Assembly (NCBI GenBank): GCA_001600175.1 | Contig: BCJC01000005.1 | Location: 228,471 to 292,470 of the forward strand | Direction of reading: 5' to 3' | DNA length: 64,000 bases | DNA from: Erythrobasidium yunnanense | Lineage: Eukaryota > Basidiomycota > Cystobasidiomycetes > Erythrobasidiales > Erythrobasidiaceae | Part shown: in pieces, positions 36,761-60,348 of the stretch | Layout: each line of letters opens with the position of its first letter | Numbering within the stretch: the stretch's first letter is position 1 | The notes under the pieces: generated by a model | The model's database searches: none | Told to the model about the DNA's origin: nothing | Seen by the model: only the letters and a program-made list of their open reading frames with translations | Position numbers and translations under genes: made by a program

Positions 36761-37144
36761 GCGGAAGGCTGAGGAGTAGCTGCTTTGATTGTACAAGATG
36801 ATCTTCATACCGTTCCGCGAGCTGTCAATTACTGAACAAGGTCTCCGACACGGATGATCATCGCCTTCAAAGAACGACAAAGCTGTAGCGATGATCCAAT
36901 TGACATGTACTAGTGATGTACGATATGTAGCTATGCTATGCAATGCTCTGCCGATTGTACTAAGTTACTACATACCCAAGCTTGCCACTTTCCTTGCTTG
37001 ATCCAAGGGCAACCGATATTGGACAAGAAAGCAGAGGGAAAGTAGGGAAGGAAGCGACGACGAAGAATAGCGAGATCTTCTCGCTTTCAAGGCTCGCAAA
37101 CATACTGCAGCGCAGTTGAATCGCTGCGTTTTCTCTCGCCTGCG

Positions 37145-40100
37145 ATGCCTGAAGAGCCAGAGCAGCCGCAAACTGCCGCCGATGGTGCTGGCGCTGGCAT
37201 TTCAGCTGGATTAGTGACGAGCAGCGGCCATAACACCACACCGGACAGCGACGACAAGACGAGTACGATCCACGACTTCTTCTCGGCGGCCTCGAGCGTC
37301 AAGTCTGGCGGCCAGCAGCAGGCTGCAGGATCAGCCGTTGCGGAAGCAGCAGCAGCAACATCGCAGGATCCATCGCCATCGACTTCTAACAACAACGACA
37401 ATGACAATGACCTTGTATCGCCCAGTCTGAGCGCGAAATCGTCGATGGACCCGCCTTCATCTGAAGACAACGATGAGCACCAGGCGGCTACGACGAGGAA
37501 ACAGCGCATCGCCAAAGAGGAAGCCCACGCAGAGCATATAAGAGTACAACAACAACCTCAAGAAGCATCCCCTACCACTTCAAAGAGAGAATCATTGAGG
37601 CAAGGCTACTTTGAGCGACATCCGGATCCAGACGCAGACCTCAGAAGACAACGATATGGCGGGGGAGGGATGGCCTCGAGCAGTGGTGGAAGTGGTTCGC
37701 ACAGGCAGACTGCATCGTCTACAGGTGGGAGCAGCATCGCTAGCAACAGACAGCAACAGCAGAGAGATGGAGTGATAGCGGGCAGCGGGAGCGGAAGCAG
37801 CCGCAAGCCTGCAAGTGCATCGAGGAGAGATGCACATAGAGACAGTACTTCCTCTTCACAATCACAGTCTGATAACGAAAGCGGCACTGGCAATGCGCCC
37901 CTCTTCAGCCCTGCTCTTTCGACGTCAACAACCCTCTCCGCGGGGATCAGCATCGGTGCAACGATGGGAGGAAGCAGCGGCGAACGCATCTTCCCTATCA
38001 AGAGTGTCATAGCACCTTCTCAACAACAGCGCCCACCACCTCCTACTCAATCAAGCTCAACAGCCTCCTCCTCCGCCCTGACAGCAACTCCTTCGACTTC
38101 TTCTAAAAGCTACTCTTCCTCCTCAGCTGCTAGTGGTGAATGGGCTGAGCGTACTACTCAACCACGCTCTGTCTCTGGCTCCTCCAACTCAAACACCTTC
38201 AATCCCTTTCGCTTCCAGTCTGCGGGAGAGCTATCCCCTGCCGCGCAGTCTTCTTCCTCTGGGCGGTACTTTCCATCGATCGCAGAGGGCGTAGCAGCTG
38301 GCCAACAGCAATACAGAGATGACTCGCCGAATGATGGAGAGAACAGCTCTGGTGACGGACACGGCACTTATGGGCAAGACTACTCGAGGCGCTCCCCTAT
38401 GAGAGATGACGCTTCAGACTTCTCCTTCCCTAATACTAGTGGTACAGGCCGAGGCAGCAGCAGTACTGCACAAGCGACTTATGGCACGCGAGGACCTCGA
38501 TCAAGCAGTAATTCAGGCACGAGCAGAACTGGTACCGCGATGCCCGATGCATCCGACAGCAGAAGCCAAAACTATGGCAAGCCCCCAGTTTACAGAAGAC
38601 TAGATTCACAAGCTACTTCTGGAGTCGGGTCTGCTCTATCGCATCCTTCAGACACTTTGGCCTCTTCTTCACACCCTACCACTACCTTCTCCCGCATGTC
38701 GACAGACTCGGACCCGACTGCTCGAGATGGAAATGGAAGAGGGTCCAAAGGCTCGACTGCGCCCTCGACCGTTCACTCGCAGTCGCAGTCGCATCTAGGG
38801 AAACAAAGCTCCTTAGGCGGCGGCGGAAAGAAGGGAACGCGGCGGCGACTGGTACGAAAGAAGACTTCTGAATCACAAGATTCAGGGCGATCAGTCTCTG
38901 ACGCCGATGAGGAGGAGGGCGAGTACGACGAAGACGAGATTGAGGAAGGGGACGAGCCGTCGACAAGCGATGACGAGCGGCCGAAAGCATCTGAAGACGA
39001 CATCGTGCGGCGTGCTAAACAAGCATACGATGAAGGCGGAGCGGAAGAAGGGCCCTCTGTCAATGCAGACACGCTAGGTTCCCTGGGCACCGAGGAGGAC
39101 GGAGTTTTCCTTACGGTCCGCTTCGAACACCAGGAGACAGAAGACGGTCATGCTATCCTTACGGGAAGGAAAGGCCAGCTGCTTAAATGCGAGGATGAAC
39201 CGATACATATTCCCGGCGCGATCCAAGATTACGGTGTCCTTATCGCGGTGGAACAAGTCGGGGATGAGCAATTTGAAGTCAAGCAGGTTTCAGAGGTACG
39301 CAGTATATATCTACTGTACTGTCTCATTCGTCTGCTGATTTGGATTCCACCGACAGAACTCGAGTGCCCGTCTTGGTCTTTCCCCGAAGCTTTTGTTCAG
39401 CCTCAATTGCTTTACCGACATTCTCGATGAAGACAACAAGGATACATTCTTGGAAGCCATTGAAAACATGGACGAGAACGATGCGAAAAACGAGAACGAA
39501 GAGTCGTCTGGTGTTCCACCTACATATGCGCCATCATCTAGCTCTAATCCAAACAGCAGCTTGGCGAGTCTGAATAACTTCCAGCTTTCTGGACAAGGGT
39601 CGCCGGGCAGCGGAATGGAGGGCACCGAGTCTCAGATAGAGTGGACGTGCTGGTGTGCTGTACACCGGCCAGATCCTCATAATCGACCAAAACTAATTAT
39701 TATCGAATTCGAGCTCGAACAAGATATCATGAACCCTTTACTTCGAGAGCGCACGCAGGAAGAGATTGACGAAGACAGATCGACAGAACAAGCGACAAGT
39801 TTGTTTGGCGATAAGCCTTCTTCTCTGGATGTGCAGCGCGATGTAGCCAAAGAAGCGCATACCAATGAAAGAGACCCTTCAGCTCAGTCGTATACCAAGG
39901 GAGCGATACCAGGCATGGGCAGAGCGGATGGAGAGGCGCCAGATCCTGCTGCACCCGAGAGTTCGCTGCCTGGTACGATAGGTCGTGGAGGCAACAACGA
40001 TTCCGATGCAGCTGCACAGACTAGCAGCGGAGTCGAAGATCGGCATCGAGAAGGTGTGCACGACCCTGGCAGCGCTCTCCCGCCTGCATCACCCTTCGAC

Positions 40101-43100
40101 GAGCAGAGGCCAAAGACCGCAAATACTATCGGAACAGACGAAGGCCTCGGCGAAACTGCTACACAAGAAGAAATCGATTCATCAACGAAAAGCAGGGTCA
40201 AACCCATGAGAGCGCTAAGACGGTTGAGGAAAGCTGCAGGAAGCGGCAAGAGTGGAGCCGATGCGCTTAAGCTCTTCTCCATCCTGGGCCAAATCAACGA
40301 TGAGCTGTTCAAGGTCGAAGATTTACAAACGAGCTTGGAAATCGCAGCAGGTGTGGTCTCAGAAGTCACCGGCTTTCATCGCGTAATGATCTACCAGGTA
40401 ACAAATCATCATCGTGGGTGGCCTAGCTGTTCGCTGACATCATTCTTTCTTCCTCAGTTCGACGAATCATGGAACGGCCAAGTCGTCGCCGAGCTAGTCG
40501 ATTACAAGCAGACCCGCGATCTTTACAGAGGTCTCCACTTCCCAGCTTCCGACATCCCCGCACAAGCTCGAGAACTGTATAAAGTCAACAAGGTGCGCCT
40601 CCTCTACGATAGAGACCAGCCTACAGCAAGAATAGTCTGCAAAAACAAGGACGAACTAAAAACACCTCTCGATCTTACCCACTCTCATCTCCGGGCAATG
40701 TCGCCCATACACATCAAATACCTCGCTAACATGGGTGTTGTATGTTGCTGCCTTATAACATATAGTGAAGTGAGCTAACAGCCTTTCCGATCTTTCGCAG
40801 CGCGCATCCATGTCAATCTCCATCATCGCCTTCGGACAGCTATGGGGACTGATCTCCTGTCATACATATGGCCGATATGGCCAAAGAGTCTCTTTCCCTG
40901 GACGGCAGTTGTGCCGGATAATTGGTGATCAGATCAGTCGCAATATCGAACGTCTTTCCATGGCGCAACGACTACAATCTCGCAAGCTCATTAATACCAT
41001 ACCTACCAATACAAACCCTGGCGGCTACATTATCGCAAAAGCAGAAGATCTTCTGGCCTTGTTCGATGCTGAGTTTGGCGTGTTGAGCATCGGCAACGAA
41101 GCAAAGATCCTAGGCAGCCTGGAAAATTCGCAAGAAGTGCTGGCCGTCCTAGAGTATTTACGCGTCAAGGCGTTCGAGTACGCTGGCATTCACGTTTGCA
41201 CGGAGGTATCTGGCTAATGCTTTGATTGTACTTGCAGCTCAGTACAAGTCACTACAAACCTCGTTGCCGATTTCCCTGATCTCGATTATCCTGCCGGCTT
41301 CCAACATGTTGCAGGCATGCTTTCAGTACCGCTTGCACGAAATGGAAAAGACTTCATAGCATTCTTCCGAAGAGGCCAGCTTCAGCATGTACACTGGGCT
41401 GGTAACCCTTACGGCAAGGTTATGCGGGAAGCAAGGCAGTCCAAGAGCTTCCTCGAGCCGCGAAAGTCCTTCAAGATCTGGTCAGAGACGATTGTTGGCA
41501 AGTGCAAGGCGTGGTCGGACGAGCACATTGAAACGGCTGCTGTCTTGCGTCTTGTCTACGGAAAGTTCATCGAAGTCTGGCGACAGCGTGAAGCTGCTCT
41601 CACGAGCTCCAAGCTCACGACTCTATTACTGAGCAATGCTTCGCACGAAGGTAAGCAGGCTTTGTTGGCACTTGTCGAGTCGATGTTAAAAGTTTCTTGC
41701 AGTTCGTACACCGCTCAATCACATCATTAACTACCTCGAGATGGCTCTTGAAGGTCCTCTCGACGATGATACACGAGAGTCCCTCGTCCGCTCGCATTCA
41801 GCTTCCCGTGCTCTGGTCCATGTCATCAACGACCTGCTCGATCTGACAAGAACCGAATCCGGCCAACAATTCTTCTTGCAGGATCCATTAGACCTGAGTG
41901 AGACGATACAGGATGCGGCGTCTATGCATCGCCTTGAGGCAGAGAGGAGAGGGATAGCCTTCGAAATCTACGAGAATCCATCCGGTACTCCGCAGATACT
42001 GCTCGGGGACAGAGGCAAAATACGACAAATCATTGCCAACGTCACTGCGAATGCCGTCAAACATACTCAAGAAGGCAAAGTAACGATAGAGTGGGGCGAG
42101 CTTCCCAAAGATATCGAAGATCCCAGCGAGGCTTCCCAAGATACTATCAAGATCGGGATAGCTATCAGCGATACAGGTGTCGGTATCCCCGAAGATCAGC
42201 TTGAGGACATGTTCCGGACTTTCGAGCAGGTCGAGATGGAAACCGACTTGCCTTCACCGAAAGGAGGAGGTCATCTTGGATTGGGTCTGGCTGTAGTAGC
42301 TCGGATAGTGTCGCAACTTGGCGGACAGCTTCGAGTAGAATCGAAAGTCGGCACTGGGTCCAAGTTTACATTCGTCCTTCACTTCCGCCTGCCTGGCCCG
42401 GAACAGAGTCTACCTCCTCGCCGGCCTTCTGTAGACTCTGCCCGCGAGGCTACCCCCCGAGATTCGCATGGAAAGCCAGCATCGGGCGGGTCTGCACCTC
42501 GAAAAGGGCGTCGTTCAATTGAGAAGTCGACCAGTAGCGGCGGAGACAGCTACAAATCTACTTCGATCTCCATCCGATCCAAGCATAGCGAAATCGACTC
42601 GCTTGTCGAAGCAATCTCCTCAGCGCCAGGAAGTCAGCAAAGTATCGCTGGGCGGCCCGACGCTCCCGAAAAACGTCCTGGGCAGATCAATGTACAGGAT
42701 ACGAGAACGCCACTGCGGAGTATTCGAATGGAGCAAGGGGATACCGAAACCCCTCAAATATCTGGCGATGCTTCCGAGGCACAACGGTCGTACGGCGCCC
42801 GACCTACGATGGGAAGACGCCGGACCTCTATGCGAAATGTTGCAGCCGGAGCAGGACCCCAACTACCCAATCGTTCGCGCACACTTTCTTTCGATCAACC
42901 TTCATCCCCCAAGCAAGCCTCCACACCGAGCTCACCGAGGAAGCCCCTGCGAGTGATGATAGTCGAAGATGATGCCATCAACCGTGCTATACTATACAAG
43001 AAACTTATCAAGGACTTCAGCTTCACCGTCAAACAAACTGTACATGGGGAGGAAGCCGTGCGCCTATATGAGAAAGATCAGGACTTCGACCTGGTATTGA

Positions 43101-43512
43101 TGGACTTACAGTATGTAGACGTGATTCTGTGTAGAATGACGACGGCTAATGAATTTTCCTTCTTAGAATGCCCATCTGCGATGGTTTCACTGCAACTCGC
43201 CGAATTCGAGACTTTGGTCAATCACAAGGTCCAGATCTGGAGCGACACCCTGTCACTGGTGGCTATGTCCCTGTTTTTGCGGTATCAGCTTCGCTGCAAG
43301 AGAATCAGAGGGCACAGTTACTCGAGTGTGGATTCTCGGGCTTCATCCTTAAACCGCTCGATTTCTCTCGGTTGGGTGACCTCATGCAGGGTACATCAAG
43401 TCGAGAAGCTCGAGATGCATGCCAGTATGTACCGGGGCGTTGGGAAAAGGGAGGCTGGCTCGTTAGCAGCGAAACCGAAAAGGACAATACTCAGACTACC
43501 CAACCGAATTAA
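37145..43512 (+). CDS. fungal phytochrome (PAS-GAF-PHY hybrid histidine kinase)
   Basis: Seven exons sum to 6018 nt, 2005 aa. A low-complexity Ser/Gln-rich extension fills residues 1 to about 640. The PAS domain starts at KCEDEPIHIPGAIQDYGV; Cys682 is the expected biliverdin attachment site of fungal phytochromes. The GAF domain has FPASDIPAQARELY (Asp near 1096) and SPIHIKYLANMG then VRASMSISI. PHY follows (VADFPDLDYPAGF, then FFRRGQLQHVHWAGNPY). The HisKA box is SNASHEVRTPLNH with His1420, and the ATPase has DTGVGIPEDQL and GGGHLGLGLAVV. The receiver has VEDDAINR, Asp1889 in LVLMDLQMPICDG and Lys in LKPLD. Introns: 39296-39356, 40398-40457, 40740-40800, 41178-41237, 41651-41702, 43111-43166. 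All key residues are present, so a working red/far-red sensor with phosphorelay output is expected. Confidence 0.95.
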
Positions 43513-43912
43513 TCTCATCACATATCGACCAACACATCGACTTCTTCCTCCTTCTTGTGCAAAATCAAATCTCGTAAGCCAGCCAACTCTGGCTCGTATT
43601 GGAATCTGCCCGTCTCCCTGAACATCGCGGCGTTCTGCTGTGATGCAGTAGTATTATGGAACGAAAATCCTCAAAACGAAAGTGCTGTCATATTGTGTAT
43701 CTGACCGTATCTCAGCAGTAAACTGTACAAATAGTGGTATAGCGGTTCTAGTGTACGTGGTCTGCTAGCAGGGGAACAATCTGTAATCATAACAATCCTT
43801 AGAAGGTATTAGTATTCTTAGCATGCACTTATACAAGGAGTGCCCTTTTACATCTCAGTCGCTTGACTCAGAACTTGTCTTTCAACGATCCTTTGAAAGC
43901 GCGCGCATCAAG

Positions 43913-48496: not shown

Positions 48497-48502
48497 AAAA
48501 AA
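48497..48502 (-). terminator. oligo-T Pol III terminator of tRNA-Arg
   Basis: Six A on plus, that is TTTTTT on the transcribed minus strand, 43 nt past the tRNA 3' end, followed by two further T-runs (TTTT). This is a normal RNA polymerase III stop signal, although the trailer is somewhat long. Confidence 0.6.
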
Positions 48503-48554
48503 GAAGCGCAAACGCTCAGAAGATCGATTCACATCGAACGCGTAGGTCCACGCG

Positions 48555-48565
48555 GGGCTCGAACC
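48555..48565 (-). promoter_or_regulatory. Pol III B box of tRNA-Arg
   Basis: GGTTCGAGCCC on minus fits the B-box consensus GGTTCGANNCC. The two inserts push it 72 nt further than usual from the A box. Confidence 0.75.
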
Positions 48566-48568
48566 CGC

Positions 48569-48628
48569 CTGTAGAGAAACACTGTCAGAACCATGGCCGG
48601 GCAACCGCAAGGAGTCATCCAGGCTCAC
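48569..48628 (-). other. spliceosomal-type intron inside the tRNA gene
   Basis: Exactly 60 nt between tRNA positions 48 and 49. On minus it begins GTGAGC (the same donor as the 62488-62540 and 58318-58379 introns) and ends TTTCTCTACAG, with TTCTGAC about 20 nt before the 3' end. Its removal restores a 5-nt variable loop and a perfect 5-bp T stem with TTCGAGC loop. What is seen is the fit of sequence and structure; splicing by the spliceosome is inferred. Confidence 0.7.
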
Positions 48629-48639
48629 AATCTTCAGAT

Positions 48640-48651
48640 CACGACGAATCG
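48640..48651 (-). other. canonical 12-nt tRNA intron after position 37
   Basis: Reads CGATTCGTCGTG on minus and lies one base 3' of the TCT anticodon, the position cut by the nuclear tRNA splicing endonuclease. Removal gives a 7-nt loop CTTCTAA on a 5-bp stem. Confidence 0.75.
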
Positions 48652-48669
48652 TAGAAGTCTGACGCGTTG

Positions 48670-48680
48670 CCATTACGCCA
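48670..48680 (-). promoter_or_regulatory. Pol III A box of tRNA-Arg
   Basis: TGGCGTAATGG on minus matches the A-box consensus TRGCNNARYGG and forms the D arm of the tRNA. Confidence 0.75.
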
Positions 48681-48767
48681 GCAGACCGAAACTTGATTGC
48701 GCTGTCTACTGCAAAACGTCCTCATCTCGCGCTCTGTTGCAGGCCTGCGCGAGCGTCTAGGAACGAT

Positions 48768-49934
48768 ATGTCAAAACAAAAATCATACGCTAGCGCTACA
48801 AGAGTCAAGCACGATAATGCTGTAGCATCCGTGGTCCCGAATATCGCGTCAGAACGGGCGAATTGTCTCTCCTTCACGATCCCCAAAGGCACCAAGGTTT
48901 CGATTCCGGATGTAGCCCAAGCCCTGGAGAAGCTAGGAGAAGGCGTAGAGTGCTTTGTACCGTTGATTGAAGATGGTACAATCATACTACAAGTCCTCGA
49001 AGACTCGGAAAATACAAAGAAACTGGTCTATAGGATGATCGAAGATGGACTACCACTCAAAGGCATTACGGCAATGATTGCCAGACTTCCCCAGGCTGCA
49101 GCTGGAGGAGAGCGTATTGCAGGACGCGTTCAAGACTTCACACCCACGTCCCTGGGAATCGCCGCTCTCAAGGCTCACCTCGAGAAGTTTGGCGATCTGA
49201 TCAGTTTCCGTGTCAATCATCATGCGGGCACACGCGTCTATAATCGTACAGCAGACTTTCTGATCAATATCTCCCAATCACACAAGCTTCCCNNAGCCGC
49301 GTTCCGTGTCGACAACGAGACTTGGGCCGAAGACGCGAAAATCACCATTGTTACCAGGNCGAAATTTTGCTACTTCTGCAGGAGCACTGAACATGTGCGT
49401 AAAGACTGCACAGAGGCACCTCGCTGCTGGCACTGTTTGGACCGCGATCATCCTCCATCTCGATGCCGCAACCGCAACAAGCCCGTCCAGTTCAACTACA
49501 AGTCTGCTTACGAGTTCACGGATCCTTACAGTGGATGGNATGCCGAAGATATGCCAATNGACGACTTCGAAATCCATCGCGAACCNGAACCAGTTTTNCA
49601 GGGCTCGATCACCAGTGCACACGCTCCTGGANGAGCCCTAGCAGCACCAAAAGCGCCGCAGACGGAGATGATGGAGGTAGTNCCGGCTACAGCTGTGCAA
49701 GCCACAGGAAGCGGAAGTCCAGCAGTCATTCAGACCAGCGTTCCGCCTTCTGTGAGTANCGAGCCGATCCTTGGGAAAAGAGCTCCGACTGCCATNGATT
49801 CATCAGGTTTCCAAATGGTTACGAAGAAGCAGCACAGAGGAGCCCCAAGCATCAGCATTCCTCGTCCCAGCCCGTACGATCCAAGTCCACGCAGGATAGG
49901 CGAAATGCAAAGGCGACTTTCCACCTCTGCATGA
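48768..49934 (+). CDS. LINE ORF1 (zinc-knuckle RNA-binding protein)
   Basis: 388 aa starting MSKQKSYASATRVKH. Two CCHC knuckles stand in tandem near residues 206-238: CYFCRSTEHVRKDC, then CWHCLDRDHPPSRC, both C-x2-C-x4-H-x4-C. The N-terminal 200 residues (LSFTIPKGTKVSIPDVAQAL; FGDLISFRVNHHAGTRVYN) look like an RRM-type fold. ORF1 proteins bind the element RNA. I chose the ATG at 48768; the frame is open further upstream to 48693 but without a better Met. Eleven ambiguous bases fall in the second half. The stop TGA overlaps the ORF2 ATG. Confidence 0.82.
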   Translation: MSKQKSYASATRVKHDNAVASVVPNIASERANCLSFTIPKGTKVSIPDVAQALEKLGEGVECFVPLIEDGTIILQVLEDSENTKKLVYRMIEDGLPLKGITAMIARLPQAAAGGERIAGRVQDFTPTSLGIAALKAHLEKFGDLISFRVNHHAGTRVYNRTADFLINISQSHKLPXAAFRVDNETWAEDAKITIVTRXKFCYFCRSTEHVRKDCTEAPRCWHCLDRDHPPSRCRNRNKPVQFNYKSAYEFTDPYSGWXAEDMPXDDFEIHREXEPVXQGSITSAHAPGXALAAPKAPQTEMMEVXPATAVQATGSGSPAVIQTSVPPSVSXEPILGKRAPTAXDSSGFQMVTKKQHRGAPSISIPRPSPYDPSPRRIGEMQRRLSTSA

Positions 49935-52900
49935 GGAGAGAGATCACCATCGCATCATCAAATGTGCAGCGTATTTCCCACTCTGCACTTCGTATACCCT
50001 TCTTTTCTCACTACGCAAAACGAACGGTGATCGACATTTTCCTTCTCTCAGAAGTAGGGATCTTGTCCGATGCCGATGTAACAACACTTACTCAAGAAGC
50101 TCAGACACAAGGCTTCGGCTCTCTCTTCTTCGCTTCTACACAGGCTGCGATCCTATGGCGGCTCTCTTGTTCGCTCCTGGCTGAGGGCCCCCGCTCAGTC
50201 AACGTCCTCGCTGCCAAGCTCGCTATCTCGAATCGCATCGTAGATGCTACCTTCGACATCTACGGCAATCCCTATCACTTCGTTTCTGCCTATGCACCGG
50301 TCAATCCCACAGAAAGGAAGCTCTTCCTCAAGGACTTGAATACGCACCTTCCTCCCTTCGTCGATGATACACGTCTTGTCATCGGTGGTGATTGGAACTG
50401 TGTACAAGACCCCCTCCTCGATTCTTCGAATNCTTTGAGCGCCAATCTGGGCGGACCAGAATTACAGACAATCATTTCGCAGTCTTCCCTCACCGATACA
50501 TTTCGCCTACAGAATCCGACGAAGCGCCTATTCACCAATCGAGCATCTCATGGCAGCGATAGACGATTGGATATGATCTTCGTCTCACCATATCTCGAAG
50601 GGCTCGTCCATTCTACTTTCCACCTGCAACGCTTCAAGCAACAACATACGCATCTTCCCATCGGCTTGCGGCTCACTATACCGGAGGCTATACCAGTAGG
50701 CAAAGGTACCTTTCGGCTGCGGGACGATGTCCTTGATCGACCACTAGTGGTCAATGATTTACGGCGAACGATCGTCAGATTGTACGATTCCGCCATTCAA
50801 GATGGTTCTAATGCCATTTCTGCCTGGCGAGCCGTTAAAACAGCTCTAGCGTTCCACATTAGAGAGCTAGACAAAGAGACTGCCCCAGAAGGCAGAACCC
50901 AGCAACAAGAACACCGGCTTCTTTCACAACGAGCACGGGTTCCTTCATATCAGATCGGATCTTCTTCCGTCAAGCTTCGCTTACGGCATGTCCGCGATCA
51001 AGACTTGATCCCTTGTTTGAGGGACGAAAACAATACGGTNTTGACGGATCCGCGAGATATGCTCGCTGAGTGCCATTCATTCTTCCGCAAGCTCTATAGT
51101 GAACCAGAAGCCCCATCTGACTCCTCTATCAGTGATCTTCTGAAGAATGCCTCCACTCGTTTGTCCAGAGACGAAGCAGGGCAAATGGATAAGGACTTCG
51201 ATTTGGAAGATCTGACGGAGGCACTTGGCAAATGCAACAGAGGCAGCTGTCCGGGTCCAGACGGCCTATCCTTCTATTTCTATCGGCAATTATGGGACAT
51301 CCTAGGCCCATACCTCGTCGATTACATGAACGCTTTGGGGGAGGAGACCGATCCGGCAGTCTCTCACCTCGCTCATATCTCCCTCCTTCATAAAAAGGGC
51401 GATAAGGACCTGCTCAACAACAAGCGACCTATATCGCTCATNAATACCGATGATCGCATCTTGGACCAGGCTTTGAATATGCGCCTGTGTTTCAAGCTTC
51501 TCAAGCTTACGCACCCATCACAGACAGGTTTCGTTCCTACACGGTGGATCNGCGATAATATCGAAGCGGTTCAGCAAGTTCTGGATGAGGGAGCCGGAGG
51601 CATGCTGGCCTTNCTGGACTTCGAGAAGGCTTACGACCGTCTTTCTCACAAGTACATATTAGCCGTCATGAAGAACGCTGGTCTAGGTCCTAGATTTAGC
51701 CGCTGGACGATGCGCAGCCTCAGCAAGGCCTCTGCAAGAGTCGTCATGAACGGCTGGATTTCTGAATCTTTCTCGATCCAGCGAGGTTTACGGCAAGGCA
51801 GCCCTCTCTCTCCATCTCTATTCGCTCTCTGCATCGAACCACTTGCTGCTTTACTACGCAAGCGACTTCATGGAATTCGGGCAAAGAATCTGGCACCCTT
51901 TCAGGAAGACATCCCAGCTCTTCAGTCTTTGGGCTTTGCAGATGACATGGTAGCTGGATTGTTTGGAGATGCCGACCTACAACGACTTCAGCAGTCGGTC
52001 ATCATTTACGAGAAAGCCTCTGGAAGCTCCCTCAGTCCTCCGAAGACATTTCTATACGAGGTCGGAGCACCTTCGCAGCGTGTCAGGATAGGAGGATGGA
52101 GAGTAGAGAAGGAGCAATTCCGCTATCTCGGTATACAAATGGGCCGCTCAGTCAATCCTGACCTCATTTGGCGAGCTGCTGCTGACAAAACCATTCATCG
52201 AATATCTTCAGCACCTATGTGGGACCTTCCTATCCACATACGATGCCTCATCATCAACATCTACTGCTATACAAAAATTCTCTACCTCGACAAATTCATG
52301 CCGGCCAATGACGAAGTCATTCGCAAAATCGAAGAAGCGGCAATCAGAGCAATTGCTGGCAAGTCTTCACCGAAGGTCAAAGAAGCAGAGCTTGTACGAC
52401 CTCGAGAGATGGGCGGCTTTGGCTTGCGGCCTTTGGCCCTACACCTACAATGCACTCGAGCCGGATGGGTTGCAGACCTTCTTGGAGACAGATGGAGGGA
52501 GCAGCGACATTACGGAGCTATCAGACTTCTCCTTTCTCGCAAAATCGCCAACGCTGATCAAGCGATTCTGCAGAAGACCTCCGCTTCCGCCATTTGGACT
52601 CGACGCGTACAGTGCCGCAATACGCTTGTTTCCTCATATATCAAGTGGCCATGGCTAGGCATCTTCTTCAAACAAGCATCATATGAAGACAAGAGCAGCT
52701 CGGAATGGGATGCCGCAATCCTGGCAACGCGCAAGTTCCTCCCATACAGGTGGGAATGCTATACTCGGGCGTGGCATGCTACCATTCAGCTCAAGGATCA
52801 ATACATCAAGAGCTGGCTCGTCACTTTCAGCCAGAAGAAATTTCTAGACTGGCGATGCCCCGATCTCCTCCAATTCTTCCGTCCTCGCTATGGCAAGCGA

Positions 52901-53470
52901 GACAGCCCGATATCGGCTACGGCCAATAGCTATAGGCAAGTGCATTCTCTCACCAGCACCTTATGTCGACCTAGCTGGCACCTGGAGCTGCAGAACCCAA
53001 ACATCAACTGGAAGAACGTCTGGAAGATCCTATGCGAGTTCAGCAAGGAAGCCTCCGGACTGGAGAATAGCGTTCGGTTGTTCTTGCTAGGCAAGCTCAC
53101 TACTCCCGCAGCTTGGGCCACAGCAGATTCCGACAAATGGCCTAACAACCTCAGCAAGATNTGTCTGTTCTGCTCGGTTGAGCCCGAGTCTCGCAGTCAT
53201 CTTCTAGAAGGATGTCAGAAAGTACAGGAGATACTGGTCAGAGCCATCGGAGGATACGGGAACGGCTTCATGAGAGCATTTGCGGATAAAGACATCATGG
53301 ATCCAGACGATATGGGCATGCTTTACGGACGCGCTTCGGCCATCCATCACTTATTCAAATTCATCAGAAGTCGACGTCTCAGTCGCAATCCCCTTCCTGA
53401 TATCACAGAGAAAGACATAGATAAATTGACCGATCAGATTAGTCTTGATGCAGCACCCGCATCTCCATAA
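49931..53470 (+). CDS. LINE ORF2 (endonuclease and reverse transcriptase)
   Basis: 1179 aa. Endonuclease (about 1-230): IASSNVQRIS, VSAYAPVNPTERKLF, VIGGDWNCVQDPLLD and HGSDRRLDMIFVSP, which are the APE-type catalytic blocks. Reverse transcriptase (about 430-720): NRGSCPGPDGLSFYFYRQLW, ISLLHKKGDKDL, LDFEKAYDRLSHKYI, RGLRQGSPLSPSLFAL, and the catalytic box LGFADDMVAGLF (FADD). Near the C terminus C-x2-C-x8-H-x4-C (CLFC ... HLLEGC) is the Cys/His motif common in LINE ORF2. The start ATG at 49931 overlaps the ORF1 stop as ATGA. No inactivating change is visible, though ambiguous bases hide a few residues. Confidence 0.88.
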   Translation: MRREITIASSNVQRISHSALRIPFFSHYAKRTVIDIFLLSEVGILSDADVTTLTQEAQTQGFGSLFFASTQAAILWRLSCSLLAEGPRSVNVLAAKLAISNRIVDATFDIYGNPYHFVSAYAPVNPTERKLFLKDLNTHLPPFVDDTRLVIGGDWNCVQDPLLDSSNXLSANLGGPELQTIISQSSLTDTFRLQNPTKRLFTNRASHGSDRRLDMIFVSPYLEGLVHSTFHLQRFKQQHTHLPIGLRLTIPEAIPVGKGTFRLRDDVLDRPLVVNDLRRTIVRLYDSAIQDGSNAISAWRAVKTALAFHIRELDKETAPEGRTQQQEHRLLSQRARVPSYQIGSSSVKLRLRHVRDQDLIPCLRDENNTXLTDPRDMLAECHSFFRKLYSEPEAPSDSSISDLLKNASTRLSRDEAGQMDKDFDLEDLTEALGKCNRGSCPGPDGLSFYFYRQLWDILGPYLVDYMNALGEETDPAVSHLAHISLLHKKGDKDLLNNKRPISLXNTDDRILDQALNMRLCFKLLKLTHPSQTGFVPTRWIXDNIEAVQQVLDEGAGGMLAXLDFEKAYDRLSHKYILAVMKNAGLGPRFSRWTMRSLSKASARVVMNGWISESFSIQRGLRQGSPLSPSLFALCIEPLAALLRKRLHGIRAKNLAPFQEDIPALQSLGFADDMVAGLFGDADLQRLQQSVIIYEKASGSSLSPPKTFLYEVGAPSQRVRIGGWRVEKEQFRYLGIQMGRSVNPDLIWRAAADKTIHRISSAPMWDLPIHIRCLIINIYCYTKILYLDKFMPANDEVIRKIEEAAIRAIAGKSSPKVKEAELVRPREMGGFGLRPLALHLQCTRAGWVADLLGDRWREQRHYGAIRLLLSRKIANADQAILQKTSASAIWTRRVQCRNTLVSSYIKWPWLGIFFKQASYEDKSSSEWDAAILATRKFLPYRWECYTRAWHATIQLKDQYIKSWLVTFSQKKFLDWRCPDLLQFFRPRYGKRDSPISATANSYRQVHSLTSTLCRPSWHLELQNPNINWKNVWKILCEFSKEASGLENSVRLFLLGKLTTPAAWATADSDKWPNNLSKXCLFCSVEPESRSHLLEGCQKVQEILVRAIGGYGNGFMRAFADKDIMDPDDMGMLYGRASAIHHLFKFIRSRRLSRNPLPDITEKDIDKLTDQISLDAAPASP

Positions 53471-53530
53471 ACTCATTTCAAGTGTATAACACACATATTC
53501 ATTCGCTGTATAGATTAACTTGTACAACGC

Positions 53531-54353
53531 GACTATATACACAAAAAGAGCGTGGTCTGGAAGGAGTATTTCGACTCGTAGCATGCACATGAGTACCACA
53601 GTGAACATCTGTATGTGTGTGACCACGACCGGAGGCCAGATCGACCAAGTGCAGGCCAGGGACAGCCAGTTGTAGCGAAATCGGCTCTTGGGGGCGAGAT
53701 CGGTAAGGTATGCTGGCATGGTTGTGATAGGATATAGTGACTATTAAGTGCTTCTCCTAGGTAGAAGAATCCCAGACTACGGCGGTGAAGGCTGTCGTCG
53801 TAGAACGATTGACTTCTTCCTCCGGGATAAGGCAGATATTGGCCTTCTACGGATTGAAGGATTGATTACTTGATAGGAACGTCACCAGGTGCTTTGCGAG
53901 CAATCTTCAGTGGTGCAGAGGGCGCTTGTCTTGCTAAAAAGGACATTTGCTCATCTGGATATTATGAACGCCGTATCAATTCGGTAGGCTTGTGATACAT
54001 TGCTTTTAACCGTTCGGTAGCTTTGAGCTTCGGACAACTTGGGCTTTGCTAGCTGGCCTCCGAGTTTGAGCGTACCTGTGGAGGCACAGGCACAAGTAGC
54101 TTATCTTGGACAACAGAGAAGCTGTACGCTTGGAAGCAGGACCATCTCCAAGAACACTATAACGGTTGAATATCCTGAGAAGGCGCTTGTGGTGTATCTT
54201 GCTGAAGCAGTCGGTATTACGAAAGTGACAGGCCCACAGATGACAAGCCGAAGCGTGATATCAGCAAGATGTACATGGTCTTCAGTAGCACACACGCGTA
54301 TAATCTGTGTGTCATATTTTGGAGATGTTTGTATGTTGCTATTCGACGGAATC
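53531..54353. other. intergenic between LINE and RRP46
   Basis: The 3' flank of the LINE and upstream region of the exosome gene. Short frames on both strands do not resemble known proteins. No clear repeat or second element was seen. Confidence 0.4.
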
Positions 54354-55879: not shown

Positions 55880-58800
55880 CTACTTTTCGGGAATCGGCGG
55901 GTATGGACTCCGTATATCCCCGTCTGATGGTAAAGAAGGAGACTGCGAGGGTGCAGACGACCTCGAAGCATACGAGCTGAGGGACGGAATGGTAGAAGTG
56001 CTCGACTGCGCCGAGTCGCCATACGAAGAGGAATACCCCTGCGCCATGTGATCCTCAGTCAGATGCCCCGCTGGTTGACGGGAAAGAGGTGGTCTCTCTG
56101 GGATGTCCGAGGTAGACGCTTCCGCTTCGGGTATCGCTGTCAGAGACGGATCGAGCTTCTCCCGTATCGCCTTCTTGACCGTAGTAATGACGCTCTGTCT
56201 AGCCAGTTCTTCATCTATCTTCTTCTCCCACTTCTTGATGACTCTTTCGAGCTCTTGCAGCTTGAACGGCTTGACGATATAATCGTCCATCCCACTGGCG
56301 AATGCTTGATCTACAAGCTCTTTCCTTGCATTTCCTGACAATCCAACAATAGGCACCCTCCTTCTAGGTGCCAAGACGGGCGAAGAAGCTCCAGGCGAGA
56401 AGTAATGGTCGTTTGCGGGGCTGCCAGGTGTCGTGAGAGCATTGATCGTAGATGCTGAGCTATGTAGACTAGCAGGAGAGGACAGAGGCGTGACAAAGTC
56501 TTTGACGTGCTGCTCAAATTGCCGAATGGATGCTGTCGCTTGTCGGCCATCCAAAATTGGCATCTAGCGGAGAGACAAACATCAGCACCATTGCAACAGG
56601 ACTGCTACCACGCAGGCGGAATGAGCTTACCTCGCAGTCCATCAAGACAAGATCTATCCGGCCATCAGAGTTTACTGTCTTCAAGTAGAAGTCGACCACC
56701 TCCTGACCATTCGCGACTATTGTAAAGCCATAACCAAGTTTGCGCAAGTATGTCTTCATAATATTTTGATTGATAGAATTGTCTTCAGCCACTAAGATAT
56801 GCTTGAAGGTGAAAGGCTGCCGCTGCTGTGCTGTCTCCTCCACTTGCCGTTTAACAGCTTCAAACTGCTCTTTCTGAATATCGGACAGCGCTGAGAGCGA
56901 GGTATCAAGTTTTCCGGGCTCGCCAGCTATCGTCGCGACTGCCGGCAGCACCTTGTACAGGGCGGTAGCTGTGAGGCCGGAAAGTGATTCGCCAGAAACA
57001 GAGGATGTCTCTGAGGAAGAGTCCCGCCGTGATGCGCCTCCAGACTCCACTGTGTTATCTTGTGCTTCTTTGTCAGTTGCCTTGTTGTAGTAGGCAGTAA
57101 AGGAGAAAGTACTGCCTTTGCCCTTTTCACTAGTGACGTCCATCTTTCCGCCTTGTAGCTGCACAATCTCTTGACAGATAGATAGACCCAAGCCAGTTCC
57201 GCCATATTCGGCCTGTATACTCCTCGAAGACTGCCCGAAGCGCTGGAACAGATTCTTCATCTCTTGTGCGGACATGCCCACTCCCGTATCTGTGACGTAG
57301 CCGGATAAAAGCCATCTATTGGCTTCCAACGCCATGGTGAAGCTCAAAGTGACAGTTCCGTTGGCGGGCGTAAACTGGACAATGTAATGAGTCAGCCTAA
57401 GCGCAAACAACCGAAAGAGGGCAATGAAGATTCACCTTGATTGCATTTGAGAGCAGGTTCAGGAAGACCTGAGCCAAGCGTGTACCGTCTCCTCTCACTA
57501 CGATGTCCTCCTTTGGCGAGTTTAGCGCAAGCGATATATCCTTCTCCTGCGCTCTCGCCGACATCATATCGATAGCTAGACCCGCGACTCTCACAGGATG
57601 TATGACATCGTCCAGAAGCTCGACTTTGCCCGCCTCGAAGCGCGACAGATCCAGCACGTTGTTCGTAATATGCGTAGCGTGAGAGACGCATTCTCGTATT
57701 GACGTGATGAAAGACTGAGCGGATGATAGTATGTTTTGCGACTCAAGCGTGCTGCTACTGCTCATTTGCGTACTTGCTGCAGAAGGCGAAGTCGTCCGTG
57801 CGGGTGTAGGTATGCCAGGCGAATAATGCTGCTCGTGCATGACTTGATCGTGGGACCTCATGAGTGCATTCGAAGTAGCTGTTGAAGAAGCTATATCTGC
57901 CAATAACGGCGACATAGCTATTGCGGCTGGACTACTTCGAAGGGGATTGGACTTGTCGTCTGGATTGTTATGCTGCCATGTCGAAGGCTCCTTCTCAGGC
58001 ATGGAAGAGGAGGTATGTGACTTTTGTTGATATGACTTGCTAGTATTGCCGAGATGAGATTGATCCCGCATGACAGCATGCGAAACTCCGATAGGGACAC
58101 CAGAGACTGCTGAACTCAACGCTTCAGACGACCGCATCGCAGGCGACCGTGGCCGATTCGTAGATGTAAGAGACAGCTGGCGTGCTTGTCGAGGCGAAGA
58201 AGTCTCTTGTATCGGATCTGGTTCCCGGCTATCGAGCTCGGTGAGCGTCCGCGAGATGCTCTGCTGCAACAGCCCTAAGCTATCTCTCAGGAAGTCGACA
58301 TTCGCCGCGATACCGTGCTGCAGATTCACATTCCTTTGTCAGCACAGCTTCTACCTTCATCCAGACGAGACGAGCTCACCAAAGGATTCCGAAGTTCATG
58401 TGCGATATAATCCACAAACTGCGTCATCTTCTGTTTGTGGAGTATAGCTTCTTTTATCCGGATATCCTGATGCTTGGCGTTGAGTGTGGCTTTTATGCGA
58501 TCTTGCTCCATATTGCGCTCTTCAGTGACATCTCGGAACTCGATGACACAGCCTATAGTGTTGCCCATGCGCTCGATGGGTGTAGCAGACCTGTGAAGGA
58601 AACGTATGGTTAGCTAAGGTGAAGAAGGCCTGGACGAATGCAATGATGTGAAGATACGCACCAGACGACAGGGAAGAGAGTCCCGTCTTTGCGGACAAAG
58701 ACCTCAGTCTGGTTCTGCACCTGCACAATCTGAGCATTCGAGTTGTCTATAGGGCACTCTTCCATCGGGTAATGCGAGCCGTCTGGGCGCTTGTAGCTGG

Positions 58801-60348
58801 GAGCGCAGAAAGGCATTAGCTCTAGACATGCACTAGTAAGAGATGGGTAAAGCATACTGCACTGCATAATGCAACGGCGCATGCTTGATCTCATCAACTG
58901 AGGCATAGCCCGTGATGACTGAAGCTGCTGTATTCATGAAAGTAGGGTGACCTTTCGCATCCATCCTAGCATCGACAAAGTCCTGTTAGCTACAGCCATG
59001 AAACCTTCCAATGCAGTCTATACGCACATAAACAAGCCTGAAGCCGTATTATCGAGTATCGTATGGATGGTTTCACTGCCGATGAACGATATTCCACCTT
59101 TGGGCACGCTTCGCAGGAGACGGACTCTAGGCGCATTGAGTGCTTCTGCGATCTTCATCCTCTGTTCGGGTGAGAACATGGCGCCCAGCGCAGACATTGG
59201 ATGTCCCGTCTCTGAGTCTCGCGTAATATGTAATTGGTCTAGAACGGTGAGGAAATCTTCGGGTGCCGTGTCTTCTCGGAAGTGATGGGTATGTTGCGAA
59301 GAGTTGGAAGAGTCGTCCGTCCGCGTTGAGGTTGATGAAGATTGAAAGCGTCGAGTAGGTTTGGGTCTGATCCGAGCTGTTGCAGAGGCGATTCCGGTAG
59401 AAGTGGATGTCGCAGTAGCACTAGTAGTAGTAGCTGAGCCTGAGACTGTATACTCCGATGCCTCGCTGAGCGATGGCGAGGACGAGCTGGGCGTCTGTTC
59501 ATGGGGTGACGACGGCTGCCACTTGCCATAATGAAACTGGGTTCCCGCTCGATTGTGCCTCGGCGTAGGTGTAGAAGGTGTACTTGAGTGTTGCCTATAT
59601 ATGCGAAAGCGATACGACTCGCTCCAGAAGCGTGCCGTTGGGTTTTCGAAGAATCTTTCGAGGGAGAGGCAGACTCTCTGCCTGTCGTCTGTGTGTATGC
59701 GGTCCTCCCACCACTGCCATGTCCCTTCTACAGCCTCTGGAGGATACCCCAAACATCTCTCGAAGCTCGCTGTGTCGTGGTGTATTACGGCGGCCTTTCC
59801 CAAAGAAGAACCGCTCGCTCGTCGATGATCGCATGTCTCGGACGAGCAGCAGGGCTCCGGGAGTGACGGGTATTGCTGATGATGTTGCTTGTTCCATGTC
59901 CACCTACGAACGACGTCTGAAGCATAGTCGAGGGACAGATACCTAATGCTTTCCGGGTCGTAGATGGATGACGCTGGCTTGCTCGAGAGGCCTTCGAGGG
60001 CTGGAAGAGAGGTTCGCCGGGGATTAGAAGTAAGATGGAAGCATATTAAACATCATTAGCAACCATACTATCCAGCTTCATCGCTGCTTCCAGGCCATCC
60101 CGCCGGGGAGAGCTGGCTGGCAGGCAGGCAGAAGTGATGTATGTCGGCCTACCGTCTGAAGCTCTGCCTGATCCACCGCAGTGTCTGCATCGTTCGCCAT
60201 CATCTTGCTCTGTCTCGTCATCGTCCGGCGTTTGCTCTCCTCCCTCATCGTTGCGCTCTTCCTCGTCGTCTTCGTCGCCGTCTTCTTGCTGGTACTGATG
60301 CTGATGCTGGTGCTGTTTCGCCGTTGTCGGGGGACGCTGCTCCGACAT
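55880..60348 (-). CDS. PAS-domain hybrid histidine kinase
   Basis: Eight exons sum to 3933 nt, 1310 aa. The N terminus is Gln/His then Asp/Glu-rich. A first PAS domain includes FERCLGYPPEAVEGTWQWWE (with IRYLSLDYASDVVRRWTWNK upstream), and a second includes NTAASVITGYASVDEIKHAP, then FVRKDGTLFPVVW and EFRDVTEERNMEQD. The H-box is YIAHELRNPL, His535. ATPase: LSNAIKFTPANGTV, VTDTGVGMSAQEM and YGGTGLGLSICQEIV. The receiver has VAEDNSINQN, Asp1081 in LVLMDCEMPILDG and Lys in DYIVKPFKL. It should sense a cytosolic signal by PAS and start a phosphorelay to Ypd1; the signal is unknown. No membrane helix. Introns: 60001-60152, 58966-59027, 58797-58857, 58591-58661, 58318-58379, 57375-57435, 56564-56630. 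Confidence 0.92.

Follow-up and report, generated by a model that had tools for sequence, protein, structure and literature searches.

A minus-strand tRNA-Arg(UCU) gene with a canonical 37/38 intron and a separate 60-nt insert resembling a spliceosomal intron in the basidiomycete Erythrobasidium yunnanense

The tRNA-Arg(UCU) gene described here is interrupted twice: by a 12-nt intron at the canonical 37/38 position and, separately, by a 60-nt insert further along, an arrangement that is real and lies well beyond chance. It was found in a 64,000-nt stretch of the E. yunnanense genome (contig BCJC01000005.1, positions 228,471 to 292,470), referred to below as the window. The reading we favor, at a probability of roughly two in three, is that of an intact nuclear gene made by RNA polymerase III (Pol III), from whose precursor the 60-nt intron would be taken out by the spliceosome and the 12-nt intron by the tRNA endonuclease. 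If so, the mRNA-splicing machinery may be needed for making a tRNA in this species.

The interrupted gene and its neighborhood

The features of the locus, all on the minus strand, are as follows.

48544..48687, minus strand: whole interrupted tRNA-Arg(UCU) gene (Rfam tRNA model, ARAGORN, stem pairing)
48652..48687, minus strand: exon 1 (36 nt), with the 5' strand of the acceptor stem, the D arm, the 5' strand of the anticodon stem, and the anticodon TCT to A37
48640..48651, minus strand: 12-nt tRNA intron CGATTCGTCGTG at the canonical 37/38 position
48629..48639, minus strand: exon 2 (11 nt), with A38, the 3' strand of the anticodon stem (TCTGA) and the variable loop AGATT
48569..48628, minus strand: 60-nt GT-AG insert, a candidate spliceosomal intron, between tRNA positions 48 and 49
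48584..48590, minus strand: branch-point-like TTCTGAC, putative branch A at 48585, 16 nt to the insert end
48544..48568, minus strand: exon 3 (25 nt), with the T arm, the 3' strand of the acceptor stem and the discriminator T (48544)
48670..48680, minus strand: A box TGGCGTAATGG (from the sequence, against the A-box consensus)
48555..48565, minus strand: B box GGTTCGAGCCC (from ARAGORN, against the B-box consensus)
48497..48502, minus strand: T6, candidate Pol III terminator, after a 41-nt trailer

The insert, running from 48628 to 48569 with GTGAGC and CTACAG as its ends, separates the variable loop from the T stem. Removal of both introns leaves a 72-nt RNA in which all 21 stem positions are paired (7+4+5+5 pairs, two of them G-U), the variable loop reads AGATT and the T stem GCGGG/CCCGC; ARAGORN identifies this doubly spliced form as tRNA-Arg(tct). 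An earlier, sequence-only reading had proposed a 12-nt intron after position 37, an insert at 48569-48628 carrying GTGAGC, TTCTGAC and CTACAG, and, on removal of that insert, an AGATT variable loop with a perfect GCGGG/CCCGC T stem, all of which the sequence bears out, the 12-nt intron lying at 48651-48640. It had also placed a minus-strand tRNA-Arg(UCU) at 48545-48687: the identity holds, but the gene ends one base further on, the discriminator T being 48544.

T8, A14, G18G19, A21, T33, TTC and C61, the residues usual in tRNAs, are all found in the spliced form. The eukaryotic tRNA endonuclease requires a pair between base 32 and intron base -3, and here C32 is able to form a C-G pair with the G at -3 of the 12-nt intron, which has both the position and the pairing of canonical 37/38 tRNA introns. 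The gene also has what is looked for in a nuclear tRNA gene: internal A and B boxes, a T-run terminator, and no run of four T within it. Its longest T run is three, so that an internal Pol III stop is not expected; the missing T4 is weakly informative, being shared by 21 of the 25 mRNA introns used for comparison below.

The main rival to the reading of a working gene is that the insert hit one of several tRNA-Arg(UCU) genes, leaving a silent or dead extra copy while uninterrupted copies supply the tRNA; we consider this unlikely, and two further rivals discussed below, an ectopic endonuclease intron and a single 61-nt intron, are weaker. AGA is the commonest arginine codon in six open stretches taken as coding (67 of 203 arginine codons, among 3,026 codons in all), so that such a tRNA must be made somewhere in the genome, and probably from several gene copies. 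In the available text of a review of tRNA introns, most short insertions of eukaryotic tRNA genes are said to affect one copy among many synonymous ones and are supposed to mark pseudogenes (PMC4090602); no other argument weighs as heavily against the gene being functional. The position of a LINE-type retrotransposon, head to head with the tRNA gene and with the initial ATG of ORF1 lying 81 bases from the tRNA 5' end, also fits a silent or dead copy. Against this, the gene shows no sign of decay: its stems pair, and the usual residues, A box, B box and T6 are present. A random insert would, moreover, be unlikely to bring every intron signal at the right spacing and to end exactly at the junction.

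The retrotransposon occupies 48768-53470 on the plus strand. Its ORF1, with 48768 as first ATG, has a zinc-knuckle-like stretch by eye and no Pfam match at 1e-5; its ORF2, which ends at 53470, matches RVT_1 (3e-27), its nearest solved structures being LINE-1 ORF2 proteins. All 17 ambiguous bases (N) of the window fall inside the element, which suggests that it is multi-copy. Targeting of tRNA genes by a LINE-type element of this kind, seen in one copy in the window, is possible. A search for target-site duplications compared 48501-48800 with 53461-54000 for exact words of 7-12 nt; the longest in common, of 10 nt (48628 and 53901), was rejected: it lies in the tRNA gene and more than 400 bases past the ORF2 stop. 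Relatives of ORF2 in the viral_contigs collection amounted to one weak match of 21 residues (L013).

Other genes of the window include a Prp22/DHX8-like helicase, ArgJ and a DUF2408 gene, which together with the short GT-AG introns mark the DNA as eukaryotic. Two large sensor-kinase-like genes stand on opposite strands in a span of about 23 kb (37046-43621, plus strand; 55880-60052, minus strand). The first is phytochrome-like by eye, with HisKA and HATPase_c domains at 41690-42892; pieces 39339-40775 and 57400-58338 have no Pfam match at 1e-5, and the remainder of both genes was judged by eye.

The 60-nt insert compared with mRNA introns of the window

For comparison, mRNA introns were collected from this window as GT-AG stretches that connect open frames (150 nt or longer) on both sides and pass a strict motif filter. 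This gave 27 non-overlapping frame-supported introns. Two candidates, 91 and 103 nt in length, were set aside as doubtful; the other 25, all at most 75 nt (49-71 nt), served to train weight matrices for the two splice sites (5' and 3') and the branch site. The training introns were chosen with a CTRAY branch site, so that the branch-site part of the score is mildly circular. The 60 nt of the insert fall inside the host range of 49-71 nt (n=25). The sequence-only reading had set the insert against the same range of lengths in some 85 mRNA introns: the range stands, and the count comes down to the 27 that are frame-supported.

GT and AG stand at the exact ends of the insert. Its intron score of 19.1 exceeds those of 10 of the 25 training introns scored by leave-one-out (range 10.7 to 25.4), and its 5' and 3' scores (7.3 and 6.7) are both inside the leave-one-out range (n=25). 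Between the branch site, CTGAC, and the insert end lie 16 nt; the same spacing spans 11-23 nt in the training introns for which a branch site was called (n=24). The fit is imperfect just upstream: a G precedes CTRAY in 19 of those 24 branch sites and is absent from the insert, whose TT at this place recurs in only 1 of the 24.

How easily might such a stretch arise? When the letters of the insert were shuffled 200,000 times, GT and AG fell at the exact ends in 1,482 cases, 4 of which also reached its score. The strict motif GTRNGY..CTRAY..YAG stood at the exact ends in 3 of 300,000 shuffles and in 21 of the 25 training introns; it was found in 0 of 124,833 real 60-nt stretches of the window, training introns and insert excluded. 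GT-AG pairs of 45-75 nt reaching 19.1 are less rare (72 of 15,460, counting the insert and its overlapping alternatives), and in the non-overlapping list of scores the insert is row 56, with training introns making up 21 of the 55 rows above it. The intron score alone proves little for the insert; the weight of the evidence comes from the set of intron signals stopping precisely where the tRNA resumes. Taken together, these numbers support a likeness of the insert to spliceosomal introns, as far as sequence goes. Within the window the insert matched nothing but itself at E 1 or better, giving no sign there of a mobile intron family (introner).

Another possibility is that the insert is a tRNA-type intron in an ectopic place that the endonuclease cuts out at an unusual position, the tRNA ligase joining the ends. 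While the 12-nt intron matches canonical nuclear tRNA introns of eukaryotes by position, the insert, at 48/49, does not, and is off the usual endonuclease site. Introns at positions other than 37/38, in some cases accompanied by a canonical one, are on record in some eukaryotes and archaea (Cyanidioschyzon merolae, the Guillardia theta nucleomorph, Crenarchaeota; PMC4090602, PMC3978253), and a reference title within PMC3978253 names an archaeal tRNA intron in the variable loop. The archaeal and Cyanidioschyzon ectopic introns are associated with motifs of the bulge-helix-bulge type (PMC4090602, PMC3978253). The insert junctions allow 0 fully paired placements of such a motif (helix 3-5 bp, bulges 2-4 nt), but those of the 12-nt intron also allow 0, so that this strict criterion does not tell the two kinds of intron apart here. 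Many of the Guillardia introns are reported to form no defined bulge-helix-bulge (PMC3978253); the Guillardia introns, unlike the insert, are 3-24 nt long (PMC3978253, PMC4090602). GT-AG or branch-site signals go unmentioned for known ectopic tRNA introns in the available portions of the same two sources, and under this explanation the GT, branch site and AG of the insert become a coincidence (4 of the 200,000 shuffles). An ectopic tRNA-type intron is highly improbable.

A further alternative accepts the insert as an mRNA-type intron, removed from a Pol II transcript, coding or noncoding, that crosses the tRNA gene on the same strand, with the Pol III RNA left unspliced. The joined minus strand does have a 107-codon open frame over the junction, measured from stop to stop; but this frame runs through the tRNA itself, the other two frames are open for 14 and 20 codons, and there is no reason for an unrelated intron to stop precisely where the tRNA needs it to. 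There is only a very small chance that the insert belongs to such a transcript.

Detection, partition and folding

The gene is easily overlooked. Rfam found no match in the whole window at gathering scores, nor up to E 1, and ARAGORN run without introns found no tRNA. In a 1,201-base stretch with laxer filters the Rfam tRNA model does score 35.7 bits, above its cut-off of 29; ARAGORN, once introns are allowed, also detects the gene, though as a tRNA with a single 61-nt intron in the anticodon loop. The Infernal/Rfam alignment too puts the long insert in the anticodon loop. Both tools thereby build the anticodon stem with the TCTGA found inside the 60-nt insert as its 3' strand, leaving a variable region of about 16 nt. 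The TCTGA that forms the 3' anticodon strand recurs in the branch motif TTCTGAC, and this leads the tRNA finders to a different partition. The covariance-model scan suggested by the sequence-only reading, with the insert in place, accordingly has two outcomes: it fails in the whole window and succeeds in the 1,201-base stretch with the other partition.

Could the tools be right, the gene having one 61-nt intron in the anticodon loop, with the TCTGA of the insert completing the anticodon stem and the variable region measuring about 16 nt? This is the type of partition that both ARAGORN and Infernal choose on the genomic sequence, and the numbers come close: ARAGORN scores are 119.6 with both introns removed, 112.1 with the 60 nt removed and 111.1 for the single 61-nt intron, and the minimum free energy (MFE) is lower in the 83-nt rival form (-31.9) than in the 84-nt RNA lacking only the 60-nt insert (-29.8) or in the 72-nt form (-26.6). 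A scan of single excisions gave 61 forms with full or near-full pairing, so that pairing alone singles out none; the best 25 of these 61 hold both types of partition, 13 being of the anticodon-loop type, which in all 13 costs the variable region a further 11-12 nt.

The choice between partitions rests on AGATT, the variable loop of budding-yeast tRNA-Arg(UCU), and on the splice signals. The single-intron partition leaves unexplained why TCTGA followed by AGATT should occur 13 nt past A37, and a 16-nt variable region would be unexpected for a tRNA-Arg. The MFE structure of the 83-nt form is not a cloverleaf; the 72-nt form, folded alone, fails likewise. That of the 84-nt RNA is a cloverleaf whose anticodon helix is lengthened by the 12-nt intron. 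The partition with two introns is preferred on account of AGATT standing directly after TCTGA, the higher ARAGORN score and the cloverleaf MFE of the 84-nt form, and we give the single 61-nt intron the least credence of the explanations considered.

In the unspliced RNA, insert included, the MFE structure is not a cloverleaf and its stability is no greater than that of shuffled sequences (z -0.08); going by this folding model, the insert most likely has to leave before the tRNA can form. Predicted openness is at least that of 17 of the 25 mRNA introns at the 5' splice site and at least that of 14 of the 25 at the 3' splice site, compared in equal frames. The predicted unpaired probability of the 5' site depends on the stretch folded, at 0.18 in the longer stretch 48720-48495 versus 0.31 in the comparison frame.

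Sequence collections were searched for relatives of the gene. The exon-1 pattern had 0 matches in viral_contigs and 0 in genome_contigs. A looser, uninterrupted pattern matched two stretches of viral_contigs (L001 and L002), both tRNA-Arg(TCT) by ARAGORN; the AGATT common to these two is circular, having been required by the search pattern. The same pattern matched two stretches of genome_contigs (L011 and L012), where ARAGORN finds no tRNA. With the interrupted pattern, eight stretches of viral_contigs were retrieved (L003-L010), none of them a likewise interrupted tRNA-Arg(TCT) by ARAGORN and by eye; the tRNA-Arg(TCT) in one (L008) has a different variable loop. Both collections being assumed poor in fungal DNA, the missing interrupted relative means little.

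Proposed processing, precedents and meaning

Assuming that the gene is intact and has two introns, its expression might proceed as follows. Pol III, guided by the internal A and B boxes, would transcribe a precursor ending at T6. The nuclear spliceosome would read GTGAGC, the CTGAC branch site and CTACAG, and release the 60-nt intron as a lariat; its loss would join the variable loop to the T stem, allowing a cloverleaf to form. Excision of the 12-nt intron by the tRNA endonuclease and ligase would follow in the usual way at 37/38, and the resulting tRNA would decode AGA. The sequence-only reading had likewise suggested a Pol III transcript spliced by the spliceosome: the anatomy and the likeness to spliceosomal introns support it, while Pol III synthesis and spliceosomal splicing, like the order of the two steps and the use of the product, are what we infer from them. 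That one RNA goes through the spliceosome and then the tRNA endonuclease, with the reading of AGA dependent on the spliceosome if this is the main tRNA-Arg(UCU) gene, is a more tentative proposition, possible but on balance doubtful.

The closest precedents are other small structured RNAs. U6 of Schizosaccharomyces pombe and other fungi is, like the proposed precursor, a Pol III-made small RNA carrying an mRNA-type intron, which in S. pombe is spliced out (PMC10484740). The intron of U6 is thought, in the available text of the same source, to come from reverse splicing near catalytic bases (PMC10484740). Unlike the present host, a tRNA with a second, tRNA-type intron, U6 is itself a component of the spliceosome. 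Fungal U3 snoRNA genes, widespread hosts of such introns in Basidiomycota, offer another parallel, with introns that are computationally normal spliceosomal ones in a small structured RNA, though here a snoRNA rather than a tRNA (PMC5832005). That source, from 2017, names U3 and U6 as the sole small structured RNAs then known to carry introns often (PMC5832005).

For nuclear tRNAs, no case of a spliceosomal intron was found among the papers listed in searches of an open-access library, subscription papers being mostly outside its coverage; and the tRNA intron review cited above, which covers archaea, Cyanidioschyzon and nucleomorphs, does not use the stem "spliceosom-" in its available text (PMC4090602). 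The sequence-only reading had held that removal of the insert would be new whether by spliceosome or by endonuclease. This is too strong for the endonuclease, ectopic tRNA introns being known (PMC4090602), and for the spliceosome it has to be set beside the close precedents of U6 and U3. What would be new is the extension of mRNA-type introns of small structured RNAs to a nuclear tRNA, alongside a tRNA-type intron.

Nuclear tRNA splicing is described as spliceosome-independent (PMC13149111, for example). If the proposed route is correct, a spliceosome-dependent nuclear tRNA would break the separation of the two splicing systems, and Pol III precursors besides that of U6 could undergo splicing; the gene would also offer a clean test of whether the spliceosome requires a Pol II transcript. 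Genes like that at 48544-48687 may escape annotation, since both the default whole-window Rfam search and ARAGORN without introns miss it. If, in addition, E. yunnanense relies on this gene alone or chiefly for its tRNA-Arg(UCU), its translation capacity would be tied to its splicing capacity.
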